This document shows positions 1,175-57,031 of a DNA stretch of 64,000 nt, one piece after another; position 1 is the stretch's first letter, and each line of letters begins with the position of its first letter. Origin of the DNA: Halorubrum laminariae. Its GTDB lineage: Archaea > Halobacteriota > Halobacteria > Halobacteriales > Haloferacaceae. The stretch lies in contig NZ_JANHDL010000004.1 in NCBI RefSeq assembly GCF_024494655.1, positions 124,001 to 188,000 on the forward strand, written 5' to 3'. The translations under genes were made by a program, and so were the position numbers. The notes under the pieces were generated by a model. That model was not told the DNA's origin and made no database searches. It saw only the letters and a list, made by a program, of their open reading frames with translations.

Positions 1175-1266
1175 GCGCAGCCCGAGCGGGCGGTGTGGAG
1201 AGCGAGGGAGGGGGAGGCGCGAGCGATCGGCGGCGAGCGAGCGGTTCCGGCCTCGGCGGGAGGAGC
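1175..1266 (-). repeat. Left-arm 3' repeat, copy 1
   Basis: Copy of the ~90-bp GC-rich element that on the plus strand runs from GCGCAGCCCGAGCGGGCGG to CCTCGGCGGGAGG. It begins 50 bp after the stop of the zinc-ribbon gene. This copy has diverged in the short hairpin seen in copies 3, 5, 6 and 7. Confidence 0.85.
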
Positions 1267-1315
1267 CCAGATCGGGAGTACGGCGAAGCGGCGTGATGGT
1301 ACCAAAAGGGGGGTC

Positions 1316-1474
1316 CTACACTCGCTGGCGGCGACCAGTGTCGATGGGTGACGCTGACGAGGTGAGGAACTCATCGAAGACGGGTTCGTCAACACGGTGG
1401 ACGTGACCGCAGTTGCTACACTGGAATTTGTTCTCGCTGAGCGGTTCTGAGTTGCAGCCTGATTGGCAAGCCAT
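1316..1474 (-). CDS. Zinc-ribbon microprotein, 52 aa
   Basis: The frame encodes MACQSGCNSEPLSENKFQCS followed by NCGH. Cys3, Cys7, Cys19 and Cys22 form a C-x3-C...C-x2-C pattern typical of the small zinc-ribbon proteins abundant in haloarchaea, which are generally thought to act in regulation or protein contacts. The rest (HRVDEPVFDEFL...) is acidic and ends in a basic RRQRV tail. The ATG at 1474 follows a left-arm promoter module with a leader of only a few nucleotides, which supports the start. A left-arm repeat follows the stop. The specific partner or role cannot be read from sequence. Confidence 0.7.
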   Translation of the reverse strand: MACQSGCNSEPLSENKFQCSNCGHVHRVDEPVFDEFLTSSASPIDTGRRQRV

Positions 1475-1481
1475 TGTTATT

Positions 1482-1527
1482 AGACCTCACTCGAAACCGG
1501 GGAATAGAAACTCTCTGCGGGGCGCTT
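1482..1527 (-). promoter_or_regulatory. Left-arm promoter module (zinc-ribbon gene)
   Basis: CCCCGCAGAGAG, then TTTCTATTCCCC, then GGTTTCGAGTGAGG, leading to the ATG at 1474. Confidence 0.6.
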
Positions 1528-1572
1528 GGACATACTTGGGGTGGGCCGATACGAAGCGAAGCGGGCGGAATG

Positions 1573-1660
1573 GCGCAGCCCGCCGCGCTCGCCGTACGAG
1601 CGCAAGGGAGGGGGAGGCCGACTGAAAGGAGGGTTCCGGCCTCGGTGGGAGGGGCTGAGC
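1573..1660 (-). repeat. Left-arm 3' repeat, copy 2 (diverged)
   Basis: It keeps GCGCAGCCCG, the GGGAGGGGGAGGC core and the end TTCCGGCCTCGGTGGGAGG, but the middle is altered. It lies about 210 bp beyond the stop at 1869. Confidence 0.7.
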
Positions 1661-1690
1661 GGTCTGTGGTGTCTGTGGGGTCCCACTCGT

Positions 1691-1712
1691 CGCGCGTGAC
1701 TCCGACGCGCGT
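1691..1712. repeat. CGCGCG palindrome, copy 1
   Basis: CGCGCGTGACTCCGACGCGC, an inverted repeat with a conserved centre (GACYCCG). It recurs at 6809-6831 and 6889-6910, always in gene-free DNA. Confidence 0.6.
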
Positions 1713-1868
1713 GGTGGTGGCTCAGACGCCGTAGGATGCTCGCTGTGCGTCCGCCGGATTCGGGTGTGGTTTTCCACTCGCGGGAGCGCGGAACGTCTCA
1801 CGGTCGGCGGTGGCGTCTGGAGGGCGCAGGGGGAGACGACGCAGTCCGGTGTGGTTCGGAACGGGTCG

Positions 1869-2132
1869 TCACTCGTCTCGGTCGAGCGCGTCGAATATCG
1901 AGGCCATGCTGCCGTGGATCTTGGTGAACGCGGCTTTCGCCGCCTCAGCTAGCTGGATCATCGTGTGGTCGGTGACTTGGAAGTCGACACTGTCGTCCGT
2001 ATCACGGGCGACGAGTCGGATCGTGACGACGTCCTCGGCATCCTGGTGGATCTTGATGTCACCGAGAAAGCCCAGTTCGTGCGTCGGTTCAGTGATCAGC
2101 GGGTCGTCGAATTTGTTGGGGTTGTCCGTCAT
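1869..2132 (-). CDS. Hypothetical acidic protein, 87 aa
   Basis: The 87-residue protein (MTDNPNKFDDPLITEPTHEL...) has alternating strands (DVVTIRLVARD, SVDFQVTDHTMI) followed by a helix (QLAEAAKAAFTKIHGSMASI) and an acidic end. This suggests a small alpha/beta fold, but I recognise no family. Its ATG at 2132 lies six bases beyond the stop of the helix-hairpin-helix gene, with no promoter between. The two are therefore very likely co-transcribed from the module near 2521-2566, and a shared role in DNA handling is possible. Confidence 0.75.
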   Translation of the reverse strand: MTDNPNKFDDPLITEPTHELGFLGDIKIHQDAEDVVTIRLVARDTDDSVDFQVTDHTMIQLAEAAKAAFTKIHGSMASIFDALDRDE

Positions 2133-2138
2133 AGGTGG

Positions 2139-2513
2139 TTAGGCGTCGAGTTCCGCGACGATCGTCGGGTCGTGCTCCTTGAACGGCTTCCAGGCGTAGT
2201 TGCCGAAGTGGTAATCGCACCGACCTGCGGCGAGCGACTTGAGACCGCGGGCAGTATCTTCGCCGACACCGTCGATCAGCGTGAGCTTCCACTTCTCGTT
2301 GTGGTGGATGTCGGGAATCGTCGAGAAGCCGGCCCGCCGAAGGTTCGTCGCGAGCTGCTTCCCGACGCCGAACAGACTCTCGATATTGATCAGCGCATCC
2401 GGCATGTGCTGGATGGCGAGCGACCGGTTGTGAATATCGTAGATGTCGAGTTCAGCGATTTCGGCCTCAGTCTGTCCGGCTCGTCCTGCGGTCTGGGTCT
2501 GGTGTGTACTCAT
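2139..2513 (-). CDS. Tandem helix-hairpin-helix protein, 124 aa
   Basis: Residues ~45-65 (IESLFGVGKQLATNLRRAGF) and ~78-95 (WKLTLIDGVGEDTARGLKSL) both show the helix, G-h-G, helix pattern of helix-hairpin-helix modules. Paired HhH units bind DNA backbones non-specifically, as in RadA N-terminal domains and many repair proteins. No nuclease or ATPase domain is attached. The final ~30 residues (YHFGNYAWKPFKEHDPTIV) are of unknown fold. It starts at ATG 2513 directly after a promoter module and is the first gene of a two-gene unit. A DNA-binding accessory role is inferred; the target is unknown. Confidence 0.8.
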   Translation of the reverse strand: MSTHQTQTAGRAGQTEAEIAELDIYDIHNRSLAIQHMPDALINIESLFGVGKQLATNLRRAGFSTIPDIHHNEKWKLTLIDGVGEDTARGLKSLAAGRCDYHFGNYAWKPFKEHDPTIVAELDA

Positions 2514-2520
2514 TTCGAAT

Positions 2521-2566
2521 ACGCCTCACCCAAAACGGTGGTTAAAAAAATCTCTGCGGGGCGCTT
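2521..2566 (-). promoter_or_regulatory. Left-arm promoter module (HhH operon)
   Basis: GCCCCGCAGAGA, then TTTTTTTAACC, then ACCGTTTTGGGTGAGG, upstream of the ATG at 2513. It is nearly identical to the module at 1482-1527. Confidence 0.6.
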
Positions 2567-2620
2567 AGGGGGTGGTGTTCTGAGAGGTACATTAACTATA
2601 GTTGAACGTGATATCTGAAT

Positions 2621-2935
2621 ATGAAGGTTGAGATAGAACCTACTCATGTTGGAGAAAGGGCAGCCCCAGAAAGAGTGAAATTGGACTATGAGGGGGAATG
2701 GGTGACGGGTACGATGGTCATAGAGGAGTGTACTACGGAGGGAAGTACGTCCGGCGGTTCCGGGCATCTGATCTTCACGACTGGGGGGGACAATATGTAC
2801 AAGTTCAGGCGCTGTGCCGATGGTGAGGGTATTATATCAACAGTTGAAGATGTCGAGTTTCCTGCTCTGGCAATTCCTAGTGATTCTGCTATTGCCCTCG
2901 AAGATAACCTCTATCTGCTCTGTGAGAGAGAATAA
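2621..2935 (+). CDS. Hypothetical protein, 104 aa, AT-richer island
   Basis: One of only two plus-strand genes in the left arm. The product (MKVEIEPTHVGERAAPERV...) has beta-rich segments (VKLDYEGEWVTGTMVIEEC, GHLIFTTGGDNMYKF) and ends LYLLCERE. I recognise no family. Its base composition is visibly more AT-rich than the genes on either side, and it lacks both the left-arm promoter module and the 3' repeat. An AT-rich stretch (ACATTAACTATAGTTG) about 30 nt upstream could be its promoter. Composition and orientation suggest separate acquisition. Confidence 0.6.
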   Translation: MKVEIEPTHVGERAAPERVKLDYEGEWVTGTMVIEECTTEGSTSGGSGHLIFTTGGDNMYKFRRCADGEGIISTVEDVEFPALAIPSDSAIALEDNLYLLCERE

Positions 2936-3037
2936 GACAGGAGTTTGTTCGTAGTGAACTGAGTTCGGGTCTTGAAACGTGATCGCCGGGTCCGATTGAT
3001 CGGCCTCGTTTTCTAGGATTGGTGCTGCTTTCTTCCG

Positions 3038-3128
3038 GCGCAGCCCGAGCGGGCGGTGTGGAGAGCGAGGGAGGGGGAGGCGCGAGCGATTGGCGGAGAG
3101 TGAGCGTCTCCGGCCTCGGCGGGAGGGG
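3038..3128 (-). repeat. Left-arm 3' repeat, copy 3
   Basis: Full-length copy, 67 bp after the stop at 3195. It contains the hairpin CGGAGA-CGCTCAC-TCTCCG on the minus strand. Confidence 0.85.
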
Positions 3129-3194
3129 TTGTCGCTGCTCGCGAAGCGGTATCGCGCGGATCGGTGCTGTCGACGGTCGAGGACCGCGCCTCGG

Positions 3195-3455
3195 TCAGGC
3201 GCAGTCCTCGCAGATGACCTCGCGCTCGGGGCCGCCGACGAAGCCGGATGCGTACTCGAGGTTGGCCGTGGGGACGAGCCCCGACTTGCCGCAGCGGTCG
3301 CACGACGCCGTCGAGTGGGCCGCCGCCGCGCACGTCTCGCCGTGGGGGTCATGGTCGGGCTTCTGGAACTCCGGTTCGTCGCGACTCTTGAACGTGACGA
3401 CCATCGGCTCGGGTTCCTCGTCGATGCGCTCTGTAGCGGCGGTGTCACCGGGCAT
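3195..3455 (-). CDS. Zinc-ribbon protein, 86 aa
   Basis: I place the start at ATG 3455 (MPGDTAATERIDEEPEPMVV), because the longer open frame runs through promoter-like DNA. The C-terminal half carries CDRC and, ~25 residues later, CEDC as the last residues, forming one C4 zinc site; a further His/Cys segment (HGETCAAAAH) precedes it. The fold resembles short haloarchaeal zinc ribbons of unknown function. Its upstream region is homologous to that of the zinc-ribbon gene at 6090, so the two may be regulated together. A left-arm 3' repeat follows. Confidence 0.7.
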   Translation of the reverse strand: MPGDTAATERIDEEPEPMVVTFKSRDEPEFQKPDHDPHGETCAAAAHSTASCDRCGKSGLVPTANLEYASGFVGGPEREVICEDCA

Positions 3456-3468
3456 GTCTGAATCCGAA

Positions 3469-3510
3469 CCGCGGTTGCGGGTATTACCTCGCCCCCTTGT
3501 GGGGTGACCG
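3469..3510 (-). promoter_or_regulatory. Promoter of zinc-ribbon gene, type 2, copy 1
   Basis: The minus strand reads GGTCACCCCACAAGGGGGCG, then AGGTAATACCC, before the ATG at 3455. The same block occurs at 6264-6310 before another zinc-ribbon gene. Confidence 0.55.
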
Positions 3511-3771
3511 AAGGGAACCGCGAGCGGGCGGTGTGGAGAGCGAGCGGCGACGGTTTTACCAGCAACCGCGGAAGTCGGGTGAGTGCCCGGTGACTCCGCC
3601 AGCGCCGGAGAGCGCGTCGGCGGCCGAGCCGTCGGAACGTTCAGGCGACAACCGCGGGTGGAGTTCCGCCGGCCATGACGCGGCGAGCGGGGTGGTGGCC
3701 CCGGTGCGGCGTGCGGCGGCAAGCGGGGCGGCCCGAGCGGACGGCCTCGCGGAGCCGGCGGCAGCGGACAG

Positions 3772-3860
3772 GCGCAGCCCGAGCGACTGGCTGAGAGCGA
3801 GGGAGGGGGAGGCGTGAGCGATTGGCGGTGAGCGAACGGCTCCGGCCTCGGCGGGAGGGG
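3772..3860 (-). repeat. Left-arm 3' repeat, copy 4
   Basis: About 89 bp, ~100 bp after the stop at 3964, with a variant interior (CTGGCTGAGAGCGAGGGAGG). The DNA between 3530 and 3770 upstream of it is GC-rich and holds no supportable gene. Confidence 0.8.
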
Positions 3861-3963
3861 CCTAGTGGCGAACGGTTGCTTGGAGTGTAACCCACTGAAG
3901 AAACCGAGCGTGTCGGGGTTTTCGCGGTCCCCGGTATGACGATTCTGTACGCCCTCACCGAAG

Positions 3964-4422
3964 CTATCTCGAGAATGAGAGGTGGTTATTTGCCGGATCT
4001 GCAATGCCACTAAGGAGTTCTGCGATGCCTTTCCCGACGGGGTCTGGGTGAATGTTGTTGATGTCGCGATCCGAAACGGACAGTAAGCCGTCGTGTTCTG
4101 GGTGGCCGATGGTGCATGAGTCGGTTGACGTGAACTGGTGAGCGTCGATTGTGTTGACGCTATGTTTGGCGTGAAGCTTCTCGTTGATGTCGAACACGTC
4201 AGAGTCTCTGAAACTCGGCGCGGCTTGATAGACAAGGGGAAGAATGTCCATTTCGGCGATGTCCTCTTTGGTGACATCCTCTGCGAGGGTTTCCTCGTTG
4301 ACTCCTGTGAGTCTCGGAGCGTAAATGAACTCTGAGTCGCGGTGTTGGATGGTTAGCAATACATCACGGGAGGTGCCATCGGTAAAGATGATCTCCACGT
4401 CGTTCGTGATTGGGAGTTCCAC
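3964..4422 (-). CDS. Hypothetical protein, 152 aa
   Basis: The protein (MELPITNDVEIIFTDGTSRD...) opens with a beta-rich segment (DVLLTIQHRDSEFIYAPRL), has an acidic helix (EETLAEDVTKEDIAEMDIL) and ends LLSGIADPANNHLSFSR. No catalytic motif or family is recognisable. Codon use is less GC-extreme than that of its neighbours. It starts at ATG 4422 close to AT-rich DNA on the upstream side, and a left-arm 3' repeat (copy 4) lies ~100 bp beyond its stop, so it fits the one-gene-one-repeat layout of the arm. Confidence 0.7.
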   Translation of the reverse strand: MELPITNDVEIIFTDGTSRDVLLTIQHRDSEFIYAPRLTGVNEETLAEDVTKEDIAEMDILPLVYQAAPSFRDSDVFDINEKLHAKHSVNTIDAHQFTSTDSCTIGHPEHDGLLSVSDRDINNIHPDPVGKGIAELLSGIADPANNHLSFSR

Positions 4423-4498
4423 ACAGCACTTTTCTCGGTATGTTGATAAAGCTCTGCTGGTCAGGACAGTTCATGGGGCGGGGTTGTATCGCTGAATG

Positions 4499-4589
4499 GC
4501 GCAGCCCGAGTGGGCGGTGTGGAGAGCGAGGGAGGGGGAGGCGCGAACGACTGGCGGAGAGTGAGCGTCTCCGGCCTCGGCGGGAGGGA
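4499..4589 (-). repeat. Left-arm 3' repeat, copy 5
   Basis: Full-length copy 52 bp after the stop at 4641, with the conserved internal hairpin. Confidence 0.85.
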
Positions 4590-4640
4590 CTGAACGGAAG
4601 CTGGCCGCGGTCGGCGGGGACCCGGTTGGAGCGGTCGCCT

Positions 4641-5264
4641 CTAGTCGCTGTTCCACGCCGGCTTGTTGTGCGTTTGGTGCCGGTGGGCGATCCGCTCGAA
4701 GTAGGGGATCATCACATCGACCATGGGTTCGAAGCGGCGGGTGTCGTGGAGTTCGACGCCGAGCGTGTATCGTGCGGCCTCCGGCCCGTGGCCGGACTGG
4801 CCTTCTCGCGGCTTGTTGGGGTAGTCCGGGTCTTGGAGTGCTGCTTGGAGTTCGTACACCTGCGCCTGCTTCATCGGCGTCCAGTAGTCGCCGCCGACCT
4901 TGTGGCGACGCCAGGCGATCGTGGAGCAGTCTGCGTACTCCGGGTCCATCCCGACGGCGGTCGCGCGGCGGCTGAATGCGTCTCGGATGGGGGACCAATC
5001 CGCGTCGGCGAGTTCTGAAAGGTCCAGCTCACCGCCGTTGCGACAGGTGTCTTCGAGGGCGTCCTTTTCCCAGAGTGCGTCGACATACGCTTCGCCTGCT
5101 TCGATCGCGGCCGCTTCGTCTAGATGTTCGAACTGGAAGGCATCGACGGCGGCGAACGCCTCGATGGATGCCGCTCGCTGTCGCTGGTCGTGGTACATGA
5201 AGCCCATACCGAGGGATTCGGCAACAGTTCGAGGCGTCTGCTCGCTGGTCTGACTTGGAGTCAT
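4641..5264 (-). CDS. Hypothetical protein, 207 aa
   Basis: A mostly helical acidic protein (MTPSQTSEQTPRTVAESLGM...). It contains an Ala/Glu-rich helix region (residues ~30-75) and a W-rich segment (WRRHKVGGDYWTPMKQAQVYEL, ~118-140). It ends in a His-rich segment (YFERIAHRHQTHNKPAW). The conserved-looking aromatic and His residues could form a binding site, but I cannot name a family. It begins at ATG 5264 immediately after a left-arm promoter module and is followed by repeat copy 5, forming a single-gene cassette. Confidence 0.75.
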   Translation of the reverse strand: MTPSQTSEQTPRTVAESLGMGFMYHDQRQRAASIEAFAAVDAFQFEHLDEAAAIEAGEAYVDALWEKDALEDTCRNGGELDLSELADADWSPIRDAFSRRATAVGMDPEYADCSTIAWRRHKVGGDYWTPMKQAQVYELQAALQDPDYPNKPREGQSGHGPEAARYTLGVELHDTRRFEPMVDVMIPYFERIAHRHQTHNKPAWNSD

Positions 5265-5270
5265 TTCTAT

Positions 5271-5310
5271 CTCTCAGTTCCCCTCGGAGGTCAGAAAATA
5301 CCCAACGGCG
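5271..5310 (-). promoter_or_regulatory. Left-arm promoter module
   Basis: GGGTATTTTCTGACC, then TCCGAGGGGAACTGAGAG, before the ATG at 5264. Confidence 0.55.
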
Positions 5311-5387
5311 AGGAGATCACAACGACGGGCGACGGGACTCGGCTGATTAGTCCGGTGCCGTCCGGCTGGGCGTTCGCGAGTGGTCAG

Positions 5388-5478
5388 GCGCAGCCCGAGC
5401 GGGCGGTGTGGAGAGCGAGGGAGGGGGAGGCGCGAACGATTGGCGGAGAGTGAGCGTCTCCGGCCTCGGCGGGAGGAG
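5388..5478 (-). repeat. Left-arm 3' repeat, copy 6
   Basis: Full-length copy 77 bp after the stop at 5555. It is almost identical to copies 5 and 7. Confidence 0.85.
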
Positions 5479-5554
5479 CGCAACAGCGTCGGACCTGGGA
5501 GTCGCCCGAGCCGATAGGGGATCCCGGTGAGCCAGGTGAGCCGTGTGCGTGGCG

Positions 5555-5839
5555 TTAGTTTCGGAACCGGGAGGCGAGGTCCTTCGCGTGTTCTGGGTTG
5601 AGCGACTGGGGGCCAACGTTGTTGAGATCGTGGTCGGTAGCGAAGGACTCGGGTTTCACAACGTGAGAGACGTCGTCGAACGCCGCATCTCGGGATTCGC
5701 AGAGGGTTTCGCAATCGCGTTCCGCGCCAGTTGCGACGACGATTCCGTCCGAGGGCTCTTGGTGGGGGTAGATTTGGACGAGGACGTGGTGATCGGTCGG
5801 CGAGCTCTCTGATTCGGTCGTCGTGTTGGTGGACTTCAT
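5555..5839 (-). CDS. Hypothetical protein, 94 aa
   Basis: I take ATG 5839 (MKSTNTTTESESSPTDHHVL) as the start because a promoter module ends just before it; a longer frame would read through the TATA box. The product has a beta strand (HVLVQIYPHQ), a predicted helix containing CETLCESRDAAF and a basic end (AKDLASRFRN). No family is recognised. The two nearby Cys residues are not in a zinc-ribbon arrangement. Repeat copy 6 lies downstream, again giving a promoter-gene-repeat cassette. Confidence 0.7.
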   Translation of the reverse strand: MKSTNTTTESESSPTDHHVLVQIYPHQEPSDGIVVATGAERDCETLCESRDAAFDDVSHVVKPESFATDHDLNNVGPQSLNPEHAKDLASRFRN

Positions 5840-5848
5840 GATGTACTC

Positions 5849-5890
5849 CTCTACCTCAGTGTCGGGAGGTAAAAACAGTGCCGCGGGGGG
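5849..5890 (-). promoter_or_regulatory. Left-arm promoter module
   Basis: CCGCGGCACTG, then TTTTTACC, then TCCCGACACTGAGGTAGAGG, before the ATG at 5839. Confidence 0.6.
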
Positions 5891-5936
5891 TGAGACTGCG
5901 GACACCTGAGCGACTGCGGGTAGGTACCGAGCTGTG

Positions 5937-6027
5937 GCGCAGCCCGAGCGGGCGGTGTGGAGAGCGAGGGAGGGGGAGGCGCGAACGACTGGCGGAGAGT
6001 GAGCGTCTCCGGCCTCGGCGGGAGGGC
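5937..6027 (-). repeat. Left-arm 3' repeat, copy 7
   Basis: Full-length copy 63 bp after the stop at 6090, with the conserved internal hairpin. Confidence 0.85.
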
Positions 6028-6089
6028 CACAGTGGCGAACGATTCACTCGGAGCGCGTCTCACCGGCCTGACGAGAGCGCCGAGGGTGG

Positions 6090-6251
6090 CTACCCCCAGG
6101 TAGCTCCGCAATTGGCGCACTCATGATAGACGGCGCGATCGCCGTCCCCAGTTGGGAACCGCGCCTTTGGTAGCTTCCCGACGTTCGGGTTGTCGCAACA
6201 CTGGCCGTCGTCGCGCTGCTCGCCGCCGTCGTCCGATTCGCTTCGGGCCAT
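6090..6251 (-). CDS. Zinc-ribbon microprotein, 53 aa
   Basis: The 53-residue frame from ATG 6251 (MARSESDDGGEQRDDGQCCD) contains a Cys-Cys pair and ends HECANCGATWG, giving a CxxC knuckle plus upstream Cys/His ligands. Such short zinc ribbons are common in haloarchaea and mostly uncharacterised. The start is supported by a TATA-containing block homologous to that before the zinc-ribbon gene at 3455. A larger frame that continues further upstream would read through this promoter. Repeat copy 7 follows the stop. Confidence 0.7.
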   Translation of the reverse strand: MARSESDDGGEQRDDGQCCDNPNVGKLPKARFPTGDGDRAVYHECANCGATWG

Positions 6252-6263
6252 GTTCGACCGAAA

Positions 6264-6310
6264 GCCGCGGTTGTGGGTAATTCCTCGCCCCCTTGTGGGG
6301 TGACCAAGGG
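6264..6310 (-). promoter_or_regulatory. Promoter of zinc-ribbon gene, type 2, copy 2
   Basis: GGTCACCCCACAAGGGGGCG, then AGGAATTACCC, then ACAACCGCGG, before the ATG at 6251. The homology to 3469-3510 continues upstream into a fragment of the left-arm repeat (GCGAGCGGGCGGTGT). Confidence 0.55.
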
Positions 6311-6550
6311 GAACCGCGAGCGGGCGGTGTAGAGAGCGAGCGGCGACGGATTTACCCGCAAGCGCGGAAGTTCGGGAGTGGCCCGAAGCAGCGAATCGGT
6401 CGTCGGCAAGTCGTGACGACGGCCAAGTCCGTCCACCCGAACGAGGTGAAGTACGAGGCGGTGAGCCCGGACGGGGAGCGCGACGCTCGACATCGTGAGT
6501 GGGTATCGGAGCTACAGGGGAGTAGCCCACGCGCGGTGGCGGGATGACGC

Positions 6551-6638
6551 GGGAGGGGCTGGGGCAGTAAGAGCGGGAAACCGGCGCGCGGTTTGCGCCG
6601 GGCAAACGTTCTTGACTGCCCTGGCGGTGGCCCCTCCC
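6551..6638. ncRNA. Covarying long hairpin, copy A
   Basis: The outer stem is GGGAGGGGC paired with GCCCCTCCC. The second stem is GGCAGT paired with ACTGCC. The inner stem is AAACCG paired with CGGTTT, with a GCGCG loop. The core (GGCAGTAAGAGCGG ... AAACGTTCTTGACTGCC) is nearly invariant among copies A, B and C. It could be a structured RNA or a folded DNA recombination site; the strand is undecided. Confidence 0.55.
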
Positions 6639-6677
6639 GCTTGGGCGGGGTAGTCGCGAGCGCAGCCGGACTACGAG

Positions 6678-6763
6678 GAGGGGGCTGGGGCAGTAAGAGC
6701 GGGAAACCGGCGCGCGGTTTGCGCCGGGCAAACGTTCTTGACTGCCCCGGTGGGAGCCCCCTC
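6678..6763. ncRNA. Covarying long hairpin, copy B
   Basis: Same core as copy A, but the outer stem is GAGGGGGCT paired with AGCCCCCTC. The substitutions occur on both sides and keep the pairing. Confidence 0.55.
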
Positions 6764-6808
6764 CGACATGCTCTGGTCTGGGGAGGCGGAGCGGTAGCGG
6801 TCCCAGTG

Positions 6809-6831
6809 CGCGCGTGACCCCGACGCGCGTG
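6809..6831. repeat. CGCGCG palindrome, copy 2
   Basis: CGCGCGTGACCCCGACGCGC, related to 1691-1712. Confidence 0.55.
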
Positions 6832-6888
6832 CGCCGCCCCAGTCATGTCCCAGTCGCGGTCTCGGAGTGGAAGACGGTCCAGTCGTTG

Positions 6889-6910
6889 CGCGCGACTCCG
6901 ACGCGCGTGG
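6889..6910. repeat. CGCGCG palindrome, copy 3
   Basis: CGCGCGACTCCGACGCGCGT, a one-base-shorter centre than the other copies. Confidence 0.5.
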
Positions 6911-6960
6911 TCGTGTCCGACCGCGGTCGCGGTGGCTGATCGGGACAGGACCGATGCCCT

Positions 6961-7030
6961 CCGGCGCAGCCGAGACGCTCGGGCGGTGTTGAGAGAGCGT
7001 CGAGGAGGGGAGGAGGGGAGGGAGGTGGAG
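6961..7030 (-). repeat. Left-arm 3' repeat, degenerate copy
   Basis: It keeps GGCGCAGCCGAG, GGGCGGTGTTGAGAGAGCGT and a purine-rich GAGGAGGGGAGG run, about 100 bp after the stop at 7134. It is probably a decayed copy. Confidence 0.5.
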
Positions 7031-7133
7031 CGTTGCGGTCCGACCCTCCGGGCGTCGGGGGAGGGCAGCTGTGCGGAACCGGCCGCCTCCGGTCGAGGCG
7101 GCCGCCGCGGCGCGACCGGTCGCGGCGAGCGGT

Positions 7134-8357
7134 TCAGGCCATGGCCGCGTCGAGTTCGTCCTCGGTGATCCGGCCCATCGCCCAGTCGTTGACGGCCTCC
7201 ATCTGCTCGGTCGTGAGCGTCGCATCGCCCGTGTTGGCCGGCTCGCCGTTCATGTCGCCGATCCACTGGTGCGTTCGGGAGTCCACATCCCACGCCGACC
7301 GGGAGGGCTTGTCGCCGCCGAGCTTCCGGCGGGTTCCGGGACCGTCGCCGTGCGAGAGGTGGTGAATCTCGGCGTCGGCGTCGACGGCGATGCTGGTCTG
7401 GTATTCGCCGTTGCGCTTGTAGGCGTTGACCTTGCCGCGAGTGATCCGGACACGGTCGCCCTCCTTGAGCGTCGGCTTGCGGCCCGACTTCTGCCAGACG
7501 ACGACCTTCACGGTCGCGCCGTTCCCATCGGAGAGGAGACCGACCTGTCGCTGACCCTTGCCGCGAGGCGACCACAGCACGTCGACGTTGGCCTCGATCG
7601 TCGTCTGGTACTGCTGGAAGGGGTCGATCTCCTTGATGGGCTGGCGGACCTCGGGGAATCGCTCGACGGAGTCCTTGACGGACATCATCGCCTGAAACAC
7701 GGAGCGCCCGTCGGCGACCTTGCGAGCGAGGAGCTGGCTGAGGGACGCACGCGAGAGCGCACATTCGCCGTGGAACCGGTCGGCGAGTCGCGCCGCCTGC
7801 GTGTTCACGTCGCCGACCTGCTCGGGGGTGAGTTCCTCGAAGGGGTTGGTCTCGGGTTCGCTCGGGGTCTCGGGGGTCTCGTCGCTCGTCGTCCGGGCGT
7901 AGTGGGTGTCGCTCGTGACTTCCTCACGGCATCGCTCGGCACGCGACTTGATCTCCTCGCCCGCATCGGCGGCCTTCTCGCGCACGGAGTGGAATCGCTC
8001 GGCGAGTTCGGTGGACTTCCGGTCGGCCTCGGCCTCGCCCTCGATCCGTTCCTCGACCGCGAGCGTGTACGACTCACGGCGCATCTCGGGGTCGTCGAAG
8101 CCCCGCGGCGCACGCCGGGACTCGCGACGACTGATCTGGCCTTCCGTTCCCATGTCCGTCGACTTGAGGCCGCCCGCGGCGTCGTGGGGGTTGCCGAGCG
8201 CGACCGTCATCACGTCCGCGCCGACCGTGATCCCGCCCGACCCACCGAAGGACTGGCGACCGGTCTCCTCGTTCGACCACACGCCGCGGACGTTCACATC
8301 GTTGTCGGCGATTCCGTAGGCTCCGGTCTCCGCGATGTCAGGGGTTCGGTTGGACAT
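7134..8357 (-). CDS. OB-fold (RPA-like) DNA-binding protein, 407 aa
   Basis: Residues ~245-330 (VDVLWSPRGKGQRQVGLLSD, then ATVKVVVW, then GDRVRITRGKVNAYKRNGEY) match the five-strand pattern of an RPA/aspartyl-tRNA-synthetase-type OB fold, where the strand after VVVW and the RITRGKV strand contact single-stranded nucleic acid. The first ~140 residues are polar with a charged coiled stretch (EERIEGEAEADRKSTELAER). The C-terminus ends in an acidic helix (EDELDAAMA). There is no zinc finger, unlike the full RPA at 47074. The gene stands alone behind a palindrome that overlaps its predicted transcription start, suggesting tight or autogenous control. A single-strand-binding role is likely; the exact process is not readable. 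Confidence 0.7.
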   Translation of the reverse strand: MSNRTPDIAETGAYGIADNDVNVRGVWSNEETGRQSFGGSGGITVGADVMTVALGNPHDAAGGLKSTDMGTEGQISRRESRRAPRGFDDPEMRRESYTLAVEERIEGEAEADRKSTELAERFHSVREKAADAGEEIKSRAERCREEVTSDTHYARTTSDETPETPSEPETNPFEELTPEQVGDVNTQAARLADRFHGECALSRASLSQLLARKVADGRSVFQAMMSVKDSVERFPEVRQPIKEIDPFQQYQTTIEANVDVLWSPRGKGQRQVGLLSDGNGATVKVVVWQKSGRKPTLKEGDRVRITRGKVNAYKRNGEYQTSIAVDADAEIHHLSHGDGPGTRRKLGGDKPSRSAWDVDSRTHQWIGDMNGEPANTGDATLTTEQMEAVNDWAMGRITEDELDAAMA

Positions 8358-8373
8358 GAGTTATCTCCCTCTA

Positions 8374-8395
8374 TTACTGCCTACGTGGGCAGTAA
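8374..8395 (-). promoter_or_regulatory. Palindromic operator of OB-fold gene
   Basis: TTACTGCC-TACGTG-GGCAGTAA is a perfect 8-bp inverted repeat. It lies between a TATA-like GTTTAAGG (~8396-8405) and the ATG at 8357, where transcription should begin. It is absent from the other left-arm promoters. Confidence 0.6.
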
Positions 8396-8421
8396 CCTTA
8401 AACCCTTCGTTAGGCGGGTAT

Positions 8422-8677
8422 GAGGGGGTTGAAACCCGGATTTCGGTCTTGGGAGTCCGGTGGGGGCGGGGACGAGAACTGCGGTCGGTCGAGGAAGCCG
8501 GACGCACCCGCAGCGAGGCTACGGCGAGCGAGGACGCCCGGCAGCCCGGAACGGCGCGAAGCGCCGCAGGCCCGGCAGCCCGGACCGACGGAAGTCCGGC
8601 GAGGCGGTGACGGAGCGGGAGGTGCTGAGCCGCGTACGAGAAACGTGCGCGATCGTCGTCGCGGTCGACGCGGAGGT
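8422..8677. other. Gene-free GC-rich interval
   Basis: No supportable gene. It contains a short direct repeat (GCCCGGCAGCCCGGA at about 8537 and 8571) and leads into the structured element at 8678. Confidence 0.5.
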
Positions 8678-8845
8678 GGTCTGTGGTCCTGGTGGATGAA
8701 AGGGCGAGGTAGGCTCGAACCGTCCCGGACCCCATAAGCACCGCAGCGAGCTGTGTGGAGAGCGAGGAGCGCAGTGCGGGTCCCGGAACGGTCGGTCGAG
8801 CCTGCCGAGGGCTTTCGCGGTCTTCTTCACCGACTCCGCTGTCGC
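8678..8845. ncRNA. Two-ended structured element, copy 1
   Basis: The 5' block (CTGGTGGATGAAAGGGCGAG, ending 8707) and 3' block (CCGAGGGCTTTC, from 8805, continuing weakly as CGG-TC-TC-ACC) are shared with 12244-12405. Between them lies an unrelated hairpin with arms AGGCTCGA...TCGAGCCT and CCGGACCC...GGGTCCCGG. Its loop contains a word of the left-arm repeat (GTGTGGAGAGCGAGG). It precedes the winged-helix gene by ~45-75 nt. Confidence 0.5.
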
Positions 8846-8888
8846 TGTAACCGACATGTTCTTGCCGACGTAGGCACTATCTCTGAGT

Positions 8889-9128
8889 ATGCCACGCCCA
8901 CCGACCGTCTCCGATGACGACATCGTTGATGCCATCCGAGAGCACGAAGACGCCGTGTTGTCGACGTCCGAAGTCGCCGATGAGTTGTCACTGAAGCGCC
9001 GAGGAACGCTGAACCGACTGAAGGACCTCCATGATGAGGGGCGGATCGAATCGAAGACCTTCCAGGATCGGTTTGCTGTGTGGTGGATCCCACACGACGC
9101 CGACGCGCCGGAATCGGGAGATCGCTGA
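8889..9128 (+). CDS. Winged-helix DNA-binding protein, 79 aa
   Basis: A small regulator-sized protein (MPRPPTVSDDDIVDAIREHE...). Residues ~10-75 follow the helix-turn-helix plus wing pattern: DDIVDAIREH, then VLSTSEVADELSLKRRGTLN as the HTH with recognition helix, then RLKDLHDEGRIESKTF and the wing FAVWWIP. This resembles single-domain haloarchaeal winged-helix proteins that act as repressors or activators. It is one of two plus-strand genes in the left arm, and it directly follows the structured element at 8678-8845, which would lie in its leader. It is a candidate regulator of the shared left-arm promoters; that link is inference. Confidence 0.75.
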   Translation: MPRPPTVSDDDIVDAIREHEDAVLSTSEVADELSLKRRGTLNRLKDLHDEGRIESKTFQDRFAVWWIPHDADAPESGDR

Positions 9129-9152
9129 AGCGGGTTCTCGGTAGCGGTCAAG

Positions 9153-9288
9153 GCGCAGCCCGAGGAGCGACCGCACCGCAGGGAGGGGGAGGGGGCCAAG
9201 GCAGTAAGAGCGGAAAACCGGCGCGCGGTTTGCGCCGGGGAAACGTTCTTGACTGCCTGTGCGGAGGCCCCCTCCGGCCTCGGTGGGA
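9153..9288 (-). repeat. Left-arm 3' repeat interrupted by hairpin C
   Basis: The left end (GCGCAGCCCGAGGAGCG...GGGAGGGGGAGGG) and the right end (CCTCCGGCCTCGGTGGGAGG) of the left-arm repeat are separated by covarying hairpin C, as if the hairpin had inserted into or replaced the centre. Confidence 0.65.
9190..9275. ncRNA. Covarying long hairpin, copy C
   Basis: The core is the same as in copies A and B. The outer stem is GAGGGGGCC paired with GGCCCCCTC: the last pair is C-G where copy B has T-A, a compensating change. Confidence 0.55.
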
Positions 9289-9427
9289 GGACGGTCCGGT
9301 CGCGGAGATGGAGTGATGCTGAGTCTCGCCGAAGGCGCTCAGCGCCAGCTCGTCTGGCGCGACCCGGCGCGCGAGCAACGCGCGGATGGTCGTCGGTCGG
9401 CCGCAAGGGCGACCGTGGCCGTGACGG

Positions 9428-9733
9428 TCACGCCGGGGCGTCGACCCGCGGCCCGTAGTGGTCCATCAGCCGCCGAACGTACTCGGCGGCAGCCCCGGTG
9501 GTCTCGAACGTGTCGCACGCGACACGGACGAGGAAGTCGTTCTGGTGGACGGTGACGTGGACGTCGCCGTCGCCGGGGGTGTAGATGGTGAGCGTCGTCG
9601 GCTCGTCGACGGCGTGCTCGAGACACGCCCAGACGGTCGCCGCGTTCGGGACGTGCGCTATCGCGCTGGCCGGGATGCCCCGCTTGCGGAGCTCCCAGTC
9701 GCGACCGGCGGTATCGAAAGAGGCGGGGTCCAT
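9428..9733 (-). CDS. Hypothetical protein, 101 aa
   Basis: The protein (MDPASFDTAGRDWELRKRGI...) has a short helix, a beta-rich middle (TTLTIYTPGDGDVHVTVHQN) and a C-terminal helix (GAAAEYVRRLMDHYG). The strand-strand-helix layout resembles a small alpha/beta domain, but no family is recognised. Its ATG at 9733 lies one base after the stop of the 35-aa frame upstream (TAAGATG), so it is almost certainly translated from the same message, driven by the promoter module at 9849-9889. Confidence 0.7.
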   Translation of the reverse strand: MDPASFDTAGRDWELRKRGIPASAIAHVPNAATVWACLEHAVDEPTTLTIYTPGDGDVHVTVHQNDFLVRVACDTFETTGAAAEYVRRLMDHYGPRVDAPA

Positions 9734-9842: not shown

Positions 9843-9848
9843 CTTCGG

Positions 9849-9889
9849 CCTCTACCCAAATCGGGGGACAGAAACTCTCGCCGGGGGCG
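9849..9889 (-). promoter_or_regulatory. Left-arm promoter module
   Basis: CCCCCGGCGAGAG, then TTTCTGTCC, then CCCGATTTGGGTAGAGG, before the ATG at 9842. Confidence 0.6.
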
Positions 9890-10471: not shown

Positions 10472-10476
10472 GATCT

Positions 10477-10521
10477 CTCTCACTCGCCATCGAGAGGTAG
10501 AAACTCCTCGCGGGGCGCTCG
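10477..10521 (-). promoter_or_regulatory. Left-arm promoter module
   Basis: GCGCCCCGCGAGGAG, then TTTCTACC, then TCTCGATGGCGAGTGAGAG, before the ATG at 10471. Confidence 0.6.
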
Positions 10522-14938: not shown

Positions 14939-17900
14939 CTAGTCGTCGCCTAGATCTTCCCTGAGTTTGTTGATGCCGAAGATTCTCTCCATCCCCGGCA
15001 CGTCCAGCTTGTCGCTAGTCTTCTCGAAGTTGGTCGTGCTGGTTGCTTCTACGTATCCGATCTGGTCAGCGAGAGACGACAGGAGCTGGCGCATCCCGTC
15101 GATGTCTTTGACCACCCAGATGCCGTCACCGGGCATGTTTGCGAGCTTGATGTAGTCGTCCTCAACGTGTCGCCGCTTGTTGGGAGATGTTTCAACCTCA
15201 ACGGTTTTGATGCGATCGTCCAGAGAGTCGTCGGTCGGCTTGGCGTACAGGTCGTACTTCTTCTCTTCGTTGTCCGGGCTGTAGTACATGTGCGTCTCGT
15301 AGCCGAGCGCGTCGTAGTGTGCCTGGATGAGCTTGACGCCGACACGATGCTCCGGGCTCTCCCGGCCGTACTCACCGCCGTCTCGTGGCGCGAGATTGCG
15401 ATCCACGACGACGTTTGCTTCGTCTGTCGGCCAGTAGTACGCCTGCCTGTTTCCGAGCGTGAACTTCTCGAGGTATCCCCAGTCACAGAGGTCTGCTGCC
15501 GTCTCGCTGTAGGGAAGTTCCTTCATCGAGTCCTTGATGTGGTAGCCGTTTACCCCATCGGTGAGCGCGTCGTAGACCATCCGCAGGAACATCTCGTGTT
15601 CGTTCGTGAACTCCTCGGTGTCCGCTGGGGAGGTGTCATCATCGCCGTCGTCGCCGTCATCGTCTTCATCTGCGCGTGCTTTCACGCCGCTGTCCATGTC
15701 GATCGCCTCGTGTTCGCGGTTGACGCAGTGGCGATACCGACTTCGTTCACGCACAGAATCCGCGAGCGAGTTGACGTTGAATGGTCCCGCGTTGTGTCCT
15801 GGCGGGATGGGAAGCGGCCGGAGCGTGAGTATCTCTGGCTTCTGTTTGTGGAAGCCCGTCGACGGCAGCTGGACGATCCACTCGCCACGCCGAAGCCCGG
15901 AGATGCGGTCTTTGATCTCATCATTTTCGAGGTCCTCGTGGAACAGCGACTCCGCGAGGAGGTCGTCGGTCGCGACGTTGCCGATGATCTTCGTGTTGAT
16001 GTTGTTGAGAATCTCCTTGTACGCCCGCCGATTGTCGTTTGGATTGTCTCCGAGTACCTGCTCAGGATACTGCATGATGAGTCCCAGCGAGAGATTGAAT
16101 TCCCGCCCTTTCGGGAGCAGTTCTCGGTAGACAATCTCGTTGCGAGCGATGTTTGCGGACTCCTCGATGATGACGTTCGTGATGTATTCGTCGTCGTCCG
16201 GCGTCCAGATGGACTGCGCCGATGTCCACAGGTGCGAGAGGAACAACACAGTGAACACTTCGCTGCTGGCTCCACGAAGGCTTCCCGTGTCGATGAGAAC
16301 GACTTTGTTTGAGTTGAGGATGCTCTTCATGTCGAGCATCGGTATCTCCTTGCTGTACCAGTTTGTCTCGTCGTTCCAGTATTTATCCTCGATCGTGTAC
16401 GACAGCATATCCCAGATGAAGTCGCGTTCCTTCAGCTTCCGGATCCGATTGAGGACTGCGTCCGTCGTGTTCATGAACTGCCGTGCGTCCTTCTCGAGGT
16501 GCGATTCGAGGATGGACGTGACCTGCGTGTCGGCCGTTCGCGGGATTGCTTCGAGGACTTTGTCGTAGTCTTCGTCGAGGTCTTCGACCTGCTTGCCGTA
16601 CTTCTGGAACTCCTGTGCGGCCTGCATGAGCTCACCGATAGAGAAGTAGTCCTTTCCGTGGTCTTTGTCGAATAGCGCCTTGATGAGATTGGTGAGGATC
16701 TCGTTCGCGACGAACGCCTGTTCGACTGTCTTCTTTCCCAGAACGAAGCGCAATATCTGGAAGTAGTGGTCGATGATATCCTGTTTAGCCGTCTCGCGTG
16801 TCCGCCCGGCACCCTCTGTGAGCGGCCGGAGATCGAAGAACGGCATCCCCGGAACCATGCCGTCTGCCTCGGGGATCTGGATATATTCGACGTCGTCGAC
16901 GTTGCCGAACAGCGTGCGATGACACCGCAGGTAGTTCTCACACATCTCGCCGTCCTTGGGGTCGATGAGGATTGTTGGCCCCTCGAGGTCATTGTGTGTG
17001 GTCAGCATATCGTTGATCGTTGCGACCGTCTTCCCGCTGCCAGTCGTCGCAGCACGGATGTAGTGCTGGGTGAGATGGTCCGCAGACAACGACAGTGCGT
17101 CCCGTTGCGAGAGGTGGTTCCACCACTCGTTTTTCGTCTCGATGGTGCTGATATCGTCGGGCTTGTCGCGGTGATCACGCAGCGCGGTGACGGCGTGACC
17201 GATCGTCATCCCCTTGGAGAACTCCTTGAACACCTCCTCGTTCGGCGAGGTGAGCGGCGACTGTGCCGTGGGCATCCCGCCGGTCCCACCGCGACTTGCT
17301 TTCGGGAGCGAGTCGATCGACGGGACCGTGATGAAGTTTGAGAGCTCGTCGATGTTACAGACGAGCAGCGGTTTTCGTCGCGTCCATGACTCCAGCCCGT
17401 TCGGGTAGGTGATGCCGTGGTTGAGCATCCGTTCGTACTCAGCATCGTTTGTCCCGAGGTAGTTCCCCTCGATGGAGTAGAACTTCCCGCTGACTTGGTT
17501 GAGCGCGTCTTGGAGATTGCGCGCCGTTTCCGCGTCGGATGCTGCGGCTCGCAGTGAGACGTTGTATGTGTGCGACGGGTCCTTCAGGTCGATCTGTCCC
17601 ATCCGACTGGTTCCTGAGCGGTAGCCGCCGGTCTGTGAGTCGTGGATTGAACCACCGATTTCATGCGGCGTATCGCTCCGGTGTCGCTCCTGTTTCTCTT
17701 CGTCGGAGACGCCAAGGGCACCATCTATGAGCGTTCGGAGGACGAGTCCGCCGGTTGTATGGACGCCCTGCTTGAGGTTTCCTTTCTGCCGTTCTGCCTT
17801 TGGAGACCAGTCTGCCCGTGGCTCGAAGACACTCTGAAAGACGACCGCGCCATCCGATTGGATGATCGTCTCGAGGAGGTTTGAGAGTGGTGAGCGTTCG

Positions 17901-18682
17901 ATTGCTTCGTTGTCGTACGACGAGAGTGTCGTCATCCAATCGCGCCGCTTCTCTTCGACACCTTCCCAGCGGACCATCTCAGGGACGTCCTCGAAGATGT
18001 TTGTGATGTCGAATTGTTTGCGCCCGAACTCGAAGTTTTCCGGATACTGCGATCGCGTCGTGCTCTCAAGCCGGTCACATGTAACGTCGCCACGCTCACC
18101 AGGCCCGATGAAGAACTTGAACTGCGCTTCGTCCTCGGGCTTGTAGATGATGAACTCGAAGTTCGATACTGGCTCGATCCCAGCGATGTGGAGCTCCATG
18201 TCGAGCGGGAGCTTCCGTCCGTTCCCGTAGCGGTGGAGGCCGTACAGTTCGCGTTTGACGGTCTCTGAGTTCACTTCCTCACGGACTGGTGTGATTTGGA
18301 TGTACTCCTGTTCGGATTCGATTTCCTCAATGAAGTTTTCAGCCTCACCGTCGCTGAGCGTTCCACTGAGAGACGGATCAGATGCTGATTCGTAGTCCGC
18401 GGGGATGGTGATCGGCTCTTCGTCTTCATCCTCTACCTCCCCATCTATCGCGGCCTCGAAGATATCGAAGTCGCCGTCAACCACCTCGGGTGTCGGCGTC
18501 TCGTCGTCTTCGACCGATGGTTCGCTTGTCTCTTCAGCTGGTGCTGGCGAGGCACTGTCCGTAGTGTCGTCGGCAGTCTCATCGAAGAGGGTCGGCGGCT
18601 GTTCCTCGGATGGTTCGTCTGGGCCGGGCGGTTCTCCTGGCGAAGGAGTATCGCCTTCCCGGTGGTTGTCGTCTTGGCTCAC
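14939..18682 (-). CDS. VirD4/HerA-like coupling ATPase with C-terminal nuclease-like domain
   Basis: This 1,247-aa protein opens with ~130 acidic, disordered residues. It then carries a RecA-type motor: Walker A TTGSGKTV near residue 548 (followed by ILIDPKDGEM) and Walker B NVIIEES near 838, followed by LGLIMQYPEQVL. This layout is that of type IV coupling and HerA/TraD ATPases, which pump DNA to a secretion channel. No membrane segment is visible, unlike most VirD4 proteins. Residues ~1125-1200 (YETHMYYSPDNEEKKYDLYA, then IKTVEVETSP) resemble a PD-(D/E)xK nuclease core with ExE in place of ExK. As the last gene of the secretion block it is the probable DNA pump; the nuclease activity is inferred. 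Confidence 0.85.
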   Translation of the reverse strand: MSQDDNHREGDTPSPGEPPGPDEPSEEQPPTLFDETADDTTDSASPAPAEETSEPSVEDDETPTPEVVDGDFDIFEAAIDGEVEDEDEEPITIPADYESASDPSLSGTLSDGEAENFIEEIESEQEYIQITPVREEVNSETVKRELYGLHRYGNGRKLPLDMELHIAGIEPVSNFEFIIYKPEDEAQFKFFIGPGERGDVTCDRLESTTRSQYPENFEFGRKQFDITNIFEDVPEMVRWEGVEEKRRDWMTTLSSYDNEAIERSPLSNLLETIIQSDGAVVFQSVFEPRADWSPKAERQKGNLKQGVHTTGGLVLRTLIDGALGVSDEEKQERHRSDTPHEIGGSIHDSQTGGYRSGTSRMGQIDLKDPSHTYNVSLRAAASDAETARNLQDALNQVSGKFYSIEGNYLGTNDAEYERMLNHGITYPNGLESWTRRKPLLVCNIDELSNFITVPSIDSLPKASRGGTGGMPTAQSPLTSPNEEVFKEFSKGMTIGHAVTALRDHRDKPDDISTIETKNEWWNHLSQRDALSLSADHLTQHYIRAATTGSGKTVATINDMLTTHNDLEGPTILIDPKDGEMCENYLRCHRTLFGNVDDVEYIQIPEADGMVPGMPFFDLRPLTEGAGRTRETAKQDIIDHYFQILRFVLGKKTVEQAFVANEILTNLIKALFDKDHGKDYFSIGELMQAAQEFQKYGKQVEDLDEDYDKVLEAIPRTADTQVTSILESHLEKDARQFMNTTDAVLNRIRKLKERDFIWDMLSYTIEDKYWNDETNWYSKEIPMLDMKSILNSNKVVLIDTGSLRGASSEVFTVLFLSHLWTSAQSIWTPDDDEYITNVIIEESANIARNEIVYRELLPKGREFNLSLGLIMQYPEQVLGDNPNDNRRAYKEILNNINTKIIGNVATDDLLAESLFHEDLENDEIKDRISGLRRGEWIVQLPSTGFHKQKPEILTLRPLPIPPGHNAGPFNVNSLADSVRERSRYRHCVNREHEAIDMDSGVKARADEDDDGDDGDDDTSPADTEEFTNEHEMFLRMVYDALTDGVNGYHIKDSMKELPYSETAADLCDWGYLEKFTLGNRQAYYWPTDEANVVVDRNLAPRDGGEYGRESPEHRVGVKLIQAHYDALGYETHMYYSPDNEEKKYDLYAKPTDDSLDDRIKTVEVETSPNKRRHVEDDYIKLANMPGDGIWVVKDIDGMRQLLSSLADQIGYVEATSTTNFEKTSDKLDVPGMERIFGINKLREDLGDD

Positions 18683-25083: not shown

Positions 25084-25263
25084 TGTTGGCTTCGTGTTGG
25101 CGTGTGTATCTACTCTCGCACCCACGGGTCATATTCTTAACCCCCATGTGGGTCTTCACTCTCACCGCTACCACACCTCTCTCACTACAAGATGAGAGAT
25201 AAAAAACAAACCAGTTCGGCACTTAACAGGCGATTCTCTCTGGGGCAGGCGATCGCTCCTCCG

Positions 25264-56990: not shown

Positions 56991-57010
56991 GGGCAATCTG
57001 TGGCGGTTGA

Positions 57011-57031
57011 CGTAGGTGAGCGTCACCTACG
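57011..57031 (-). promoter_or_regulatory. Palindromic operator of ribonucleotide reductase gene
   Basis: CGTAGGTGA-GCG-TCACCTACG is a perfect 9-bp inverted repeat. It lies ~17-37 nt downstream of a TATA box (CCTATATGG, ~57048-57056), so it covers the expected transcription start. It does not resemble the bacterial NrdR box. Confidence 0.65.

Follow-up and report, generated by a model that had tools for sequence, protein, structure and literature searches.

Why should a run of small, unrelated genes on a haloarchaeal element be followed, time after time, by the same hairpin-forming repeat of about 90 bases? The question is raised by a 64,000-nucleotide stretch of DNA from Halorubrum laminariae (the window), which is C37:124001-188000 of a 302-kb circular contig, C37; coordinates are those of the window unless marked C37. 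An earlier note had likened the promoter-gene-repeat layout to a cassette array. The layout is borne out and is seen again in independent relatives, but cassette recombination is unsupported. The repeat family is previously undescribed. Directly observed are its single orientation, its linkage to the 3' ends of genes, the compensatory changes in its stems and its restriction to one family of elements. Tentatively, and with much room left for the alternatives weighed below, we favor the explanation that the repeat folds into a structure and acts as a boundary element; it is predicted to close the autonomous transcription units of an island that resembles a leading region, carried by a probably conjugative haloarchaeal megaplasmid.

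The repeat consists of three conserved blocks (GCCGAGGCCGGAG, CTCCCCCTCC and GGCTGCGCC on the gene strand) around two variable stem-loops, V2 and V1. On that strand, the canonical form (type 1) reads CCTCCCGCCGAGGCCGGAG-[V2]-CTCCCCCTCC-[V1]-CGGGCTGCGCC, and a type 2 form reads CCTCCCCCGANGCCCGGAGGG-[V2]-CCCCTCC-[V1]-TCGGCTGCGCC. The element carries 13 copies in a single orientation at C37:115.3-133.3 kb, nine of them inside the window; ten strong copies lie at C37:120.7-130.0 kb in + orientation, the genes running on the minus strand. An exact two-block pattern of the repeat matched 7 times in the window and 0 times in 100 shuffles, and DNA and pattern searches found no copy elsewhere in the genome. 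All nine copies listed in the earlier note exist where it placed them, in one orientation, and the distance past a minus-strand stop, given there as about 50-210 bp, measures 46-209 nt. The array nevertheless runs on leftward beyond the extent described, with four more copies. The copy at 6961, previously taken to be decayed, is of the distinct type 2, with further examples at C37:115345 and, in Halosimplex pelagicum, at three places. Nor is the copy at 9153 simply interrupted: its middle, which measures ~27 nt in Halohasta litorea, has been exchanged for a palindrome of ~79 nt. The copies are as follows, with sense given as the gene strand.

1175..1269, minus strand: type 1 (canonical) repeat R4, 46 nt past the stop of the gene at 1316-1474(-)
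1573..1659, minus strand: type 1 repeat R5, whose V1 hairpin, GCGCTCG/CGAGCGC, is perfect
3038..3131, minus strand: type 1 repeat R6, with the 3' end of a plus-strand gene downstream
3772..3864, minus strand: type 1 repeat R7, with V2 pair 9:30 changed from C-G to T-A
4499..4593, minus strand: type 1 repeat R8, with a V2 stem-loop unlike that of the Halohasta litorea copy
5388..5481, minus strand: type 1 repeat R9
5937..6030, minus strand: type 1 repeat R10
6961..7066, minus strand: type 2 repeat R11, behind an RPA-like gene
9153..9290, minus strand: type 1 repeat R12, with V2 swapped for a palindrome (9193-9271)
6539..6765, no strand assigned: two free-standing copies of the long palindrome found in R12, GGCAGTAAGA...TCTTGACTGCC
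C37:120730, 121304 and 123612: three canonical copies left of the window
C37:115345: type 2 copy left of the window

The blocks are almost without variation, GGCTGCGCC being invariant across 24 copies. V1 and V2 differ in sequence and length, yet they are mostly self-complementary, with stems such as CCCGAATC-AGA-GATTCGGG, CCGACG..CGTCGG, ACGCGCT..AGCGCGT and GACGCTC..GAGCGTC. When arms were swapped between copies, folding was lost; in every test, the observed energy was beaten in 0-3 of 5000 permutations. Compensatory double changes were found at 3 of 9 V2 pairs among the megaplasmid copies and at 2 of 8 V1 pairs in Halosimplex, with zero under a slid pairing used as a control. A copy in another haloarchaeal genome, G177, folds as a three-way junction (z=-3.6).

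Searches for known counterparts of the repeat gave little. Rfam covariance models produced no gathering-level match in the window; in L014 and L099 they gave miRNA matches alone, all below threshold, and searches of plasmid and phage sequences and of IMG/VR with the repeat or its patterns gave no match. A Chloroflexi match (L103), which covers the model only in part, and a match in G442, which did not score with the hidden Markov model of the repeat, were judged to be chance; reversed-pattern controls gave matches at a similar rate in 392 genomes. The V1 loop CTCTCCACACCGC was also considered as a host-wide hairpin and rejected, its 11 copies all lying on one strand of C37 at 118.6-130 kb. The same loop is contained, in one copy with a single mismatch, in two structured leaders of ~126 bp (3450-3575 and 6246-6371), which are 86% identical and precede two small zinc-ribbon-like genes.

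All 13 repeats are intergenic, and 9 are at most 75 nt from a stop codon, where 20% of the available intergenic positions would be (P=1.6e-4); the placement at gene 3' regions that the earlier note described is thus borne out. Its further statement that copies usually precede the next promoter stands only in part: the copies at 3038 and 9153 run into the 3' end of a plus-strand gene, and positions at most 210 nt before a start are not enriched (7 of 13 copies, expected 43%, P=0.30). The repeats close transcription units, not each gene, as 2139-2513 and 1869-2132 have one repeat between the two of them. Many units open with a shared promoter/operator, in which a palindromic element close to CTACCC-N6-GGGTAG comes after a TATA-like TTTCTA; the strongest matches cluster at C37:102-136 kb on the minus strand. 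Examples of these sites and of the array genes are given here.

1482..1515, minus strand: shared promoter/operator, TTTCTA plus a palindrome related to CTACCC-N6-GGGTAG
813-845, 940-972, 2518-2550, 5847-5879, 9845-9879 and 10473-10508: further promoter/operator sites
1316..1474, minus strand: array gene for a zinc-ribbon protein of 52 amino acids, with the repeat behind it in the window and in Halosimplex
2139..2513, minus strand: array gene for a helix-hairpin-helix protein, in one unit with 1869-2132
4641..5264, minus strand: array gene for a protein of 207 amino acids, with homologues in pHsi55 and pHOS300

In Halosimplex and G177, 6 of 8 cases examined have four to seven consecutive T between the stop and the repeat, and such T-runs are present in some units of the megaplasmid. 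The repeat thus usually comes after a T-run terminator and, in other units, replaces it. In a study of termination in Haloferax volcanii, intergenic transcript ends fell at T-stretches, and in a reporter T5C terminated 95% and a hairpin 59% of the transcripts (PMC7237163), so that a T-run plus a hairpin is a plausible two-part end. Like the haloarchaeal terminators of that study, the repeat is found just past the stop codons of units, in the window and in the relatives, with a T-run followed or replaced by a hairpin; unlike them, it is a sequence-conserved family limited to one family of mobile elements.

How stable is this arrangement? Halohasta litorea R30 (NZ_JANHDJ010000006.1) possesses a collinear circular element of ~297 kb that is ~99% identical, and such identity over ~300 kb in two haloarchaeal genera points to a very recent transfer. 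Every gene and repeat of the array is in the same place in both, the sole structural differences being V2 of two copies, at 4543 and 9193. The change at 4543, in the copy at 4499, borders a short, more strongly diverged tract that extends into the gene at 4641-5264, consistent with homologous recombination involving a diverged relative. Between the two elements, C37:110.5-118.4 kb is clearly more diverged than all other parts (about 94% in its best-aligned portion) and represents an imported tract.

Independent relatives of the repeat are found in Halosimplex pelagicum and in two other haloarchaeal genomes (G177 and G422), near the same kind of small genes and, in all three, again at 3' ends. 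In Halosimplex pelagicum R2, a related element is integrated in the chromosome and includes the helicase, primase-polymerase, coupling ATPase, island and further genes in largely the same order as on the megaplasmid. Nine repeats of both types are present in the Halosimplex island. The backbone genes are homologous to those of the window, whereas the small genes between the repeats are largely different; two common genes (a zinc-finger gene at C37:125316 and the 123763 family) have the repeat behind each of them in both loci but lie in different neighborhoods. G177 has a single repeat, behind a 5'-truncated RPA-like gene, and G422 has two in an island of the same gene families. The V2 allele CCGACGGACRTAGTTGCGWCGG is common to Halosimplex and the window megaplasmid, and one V1 allele is common to the window and G422, combinations that differ across hosts and indicate that the stem-loop modules assort separately.

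We favor a boundary element because it explains the 3' linkage, the confinement to unit ends, the partnership with T-runs and the collinearity of the two megaplasmids. A unit would start with the shared, probably coregulated promoter/operator and continue with one or two small genes; a T-run terminator would often follow, and the repeat would come last. The G-rich template strand, or the RNA made from it, may fold to provide a back-up terminator or insulator, which would keep read-through from one unit from disturbing the next promoter. Passively, the repeats could also supply short homology for an occasional exchange of units or stem-loop modules, an exchange that is probably slow and homologous. 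Phage morons are likewise promoter-gene-terminator units, small and autonomous, inserted in a mobile element; by contrast, the island of the window has many consecutive units with one promoter type and one boundary repeat.

Several observations weigh against this explanation. Folded as RNA, several of seven copies are no more stable than shuffles, and the canonical V1 in the window folds weakly. Many units of the same island are without a repeat, and where a T-run lies ahead of the repeat, the terminator may already have done its job. Among V2 pairs, G-U wobbles number 16 of 225 on the strand opposite the gene and 1 of 209 on the gene strand. This bias would argue against a folded 3' untranslated region but is suggestive only, because the copies are related, few of the changes are independent and the count is inflated.

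The most probable of the alternatives, which we regard as possible but unlikely, is that the repeats are single-stranded DNA elements of a conjugative leading region, folding on the transferred strand as priming sites or as protected hairpins on entry. The island would then correspond, in archaea, to the leading region known from bacteria, with RPA replacing SSB and small genes on the same strand. Genes of the element include the following.

37993..40851, minus strand: VirB4-like conjugation ATPase (NF045971, E=6e-54, under the curated cut-off)
14939..18682, minus strand: probable TraD/TrbC-like conjugative coupling ATPase of 1247 amino acids (TIGR03743, E=1.4e-4, under the curated cut-off)
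22681..25125, minus strand: protein with an NrS-1-type primase-polymerase helix-bundle domain
53415-57026: ribonucleotide reductase that contains an intein
7134..8357, minus strand: RPA-like OB-fold single-stranded DNA-binding protein of 407 amino acids, inside the island

XPD-like helicases and PCNA are also encoded on the 302-kb element, and a paralogue of the RPA-like gene at C37:117073-118287 is 69% identical. From this gene content (VirB4-like, TraD-like, RPA-like, primase-polymerase, helicase, PCNA and ribonucleotide reductase), the element is most likely a conjugative megaplasmid that carries part of its own replisome. The similarity of the 1247-amino acid protein to TraD/TrbC-type coupling ATPases is weak but consistent; its gene directly adjoins the island, and its Halosimplex counterpart, which is 64% identical, is likewise beside the island. 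The VirB4 ATPase, the probable TraD-like ATPase beside the island and the RPA-like protein together give the island its resemblance to a conjugative leading region. Its genes are nearly all on a single strand, and the primase-polymerase domain and the preference of V2 structure for the template strand are in line with the same idea. Bacterial leading regions contain SSB genes, T-strand genes and folded Frpo/ssi sites (PMC11541004), and the island shares with them an adjacent coupling-protein gene, a single-stranded DNA-binding gene, many small same-strand genes and repeated folded elements. It differs in being archaeal and in having an RPA-like protein instead of SSB. Against a role in the transferred strand, the repeats are tied to gene 3' ends and not placed before starts, and their hairpins have no TATA-like promoter inside, unlike the Frpo promoter. 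The island lies where a leading region could be expected, but no origin of transfer (oriT) was located and no relaxase identified. A stronger candidate for that role, moreover, is another hairpin array, which lies upstream of the RPA gene.

That array occupies C37:118287-120517, left of the window, where ~2-3 kb of noncoding sequence before the RPA-like gene contains, at least six times, a second folded motif, [stem]CGGACCCTA-CCCGC(hairpin, often C-UUCG-G)GCGGG-TCCCTTCC[stem']. The motif is also present at L099:4500-6450, L047:16421-19560, L048 and L050, which represent different haloarchaeal families, and three of them have the same spacing. The stretch is a candidate large noncoding RNA or oriT/origin. 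A third recurring element, GAAAGCCCTCG...CTCGCCCTTTCAGTCCACCAGGACC, flanks island genes in the window megaplasmid and in Halosimplex (8695-8822; the start of C37:118287-120517, gene strand; L099:1075-1195 and 4367-4490). Before the RPA-like gene of the window, an operator-like palindrome ACTGCCTACGTGGGCAGT at 8375-8395 recalls GGCAGT, the sequence at the ends of the long palindromes (6539-6765 and 9193-9271). Ten island proteins had no defense match in PADLOC, the RPA-like protein had no match among viral contigs, and on distant plasmids of Natronomonas, Natribaculum and G015 an RPA-like gene is present and the repeat absent. A tRNA-Ser called by ARAGORN at 9584-9664 is probably spurious, since it lies on the opposite strand within coding sequence. 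A combined reading, to which we give a rather low probability, is an archaeal leading region with its own single-strand-folding DNA sites, namely the 3' repeats together with the hairpin array that precedes the RPA gene; its modular units would be exchanged at folded repeats with no integron integrase.

It is improbable, in our judgment, that the repeat is a passive scar of recombination, a functionless spacer copied behind units by duplication and gene conversion, its conservation reflecting recent homogenization. The V2 exchange at 4499 borders a short diverged tract, as homologous recombination predicts, and copies are more similar within one element than between elements. These observations are set against invariant blocks and compensatory stems that hold across different haloarchaeal families, and against the strict 3' linkage and orientation.

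More doubtful still is the integron-like cassette array, in which the repeat would be an attC-like site folding on the bottom strand and served by a recombinase in trans. In form the likeness is close. As in integron cassettes with attC, including clusters of attC sites lacking integrases (CALINs) and archaeal integrons (PMC9668308), a structured repeat of ~90 bp with conserved boxes and a variable folded middle stands 3' of small unrelated genes in one orientation; the units between repeats differ between Halosimplex and the window, and V2 and V1 alleles assort separately among hosts. The repeat is indeed a folded imperfect palindrome with a variable center 3' of an open reading frame, but it has two stem-loops and its fold differs from that of attC. 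The absence of a GTTRRRY core, already remarked on in the earlier note, extends to all 24 copies, in which GCTCAAC occurs only in the V1 loop of four; a RYYYAAC core is likewise lacking. No integrase had been visible in the window, and the whole of C37 has no tyrosine recombinase, as PF00589 has 14 matches in the genome but zero on C37; the Halosimplex locus has no tyrosine recombinase nearby, the nearest being about 150 kb off. CALINs are without IntI by definition, so this absence alone does not exclude cassettes. The gain or loss of one gene plus one repeat that a cassette array would lead one to look for was not seen between the two ~99%-identical megaplasmids. Halosimplex differs in unit content, but divergence hides individual events of gain or loss. 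Integron cassettes are expected to be mostly promoterless, whereas many units here have the shared promoter/operator, and the homologues of the 207-amino acid array gene in pHsi55 and pHOS300 have neither repeat nor promoter.

A miniature transposon or a dispersed palindrome of the repetitive extragenic palindrome/bacterial interspersed mosaic element (REP/BIME) type, suggested by the short, structured, intergenic, multicopy nature of the repeat, is very improbable, given flanks that on inspection showed no terminal inverted repeat or target duplication and 13 copies confined to one 18-kb island in a single orientation, with none elsewhere in the genome.

To our knowledge, little has been established about the way in which a haloarchaeal conjugative megaplasmid shields its first genes on reaching a new host and gets them expressed. 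The island described here is a concrete candidate for such a system: genes for a coupling ATPase and an RPA-like protein stand together with a regulon of small genes and with folded boundary elements of one family. Two genera carry it on ~300-kb plasmids that are nearly identical, and a relative of it lies in a chromosome. Should the repeat prove to be a terminator or insulator, its conserved sequence would be unusual among those of archaea. If the small genes are early or anti-defense genes, the shared promoter and the repeat would provide a simple route to finding more of them.

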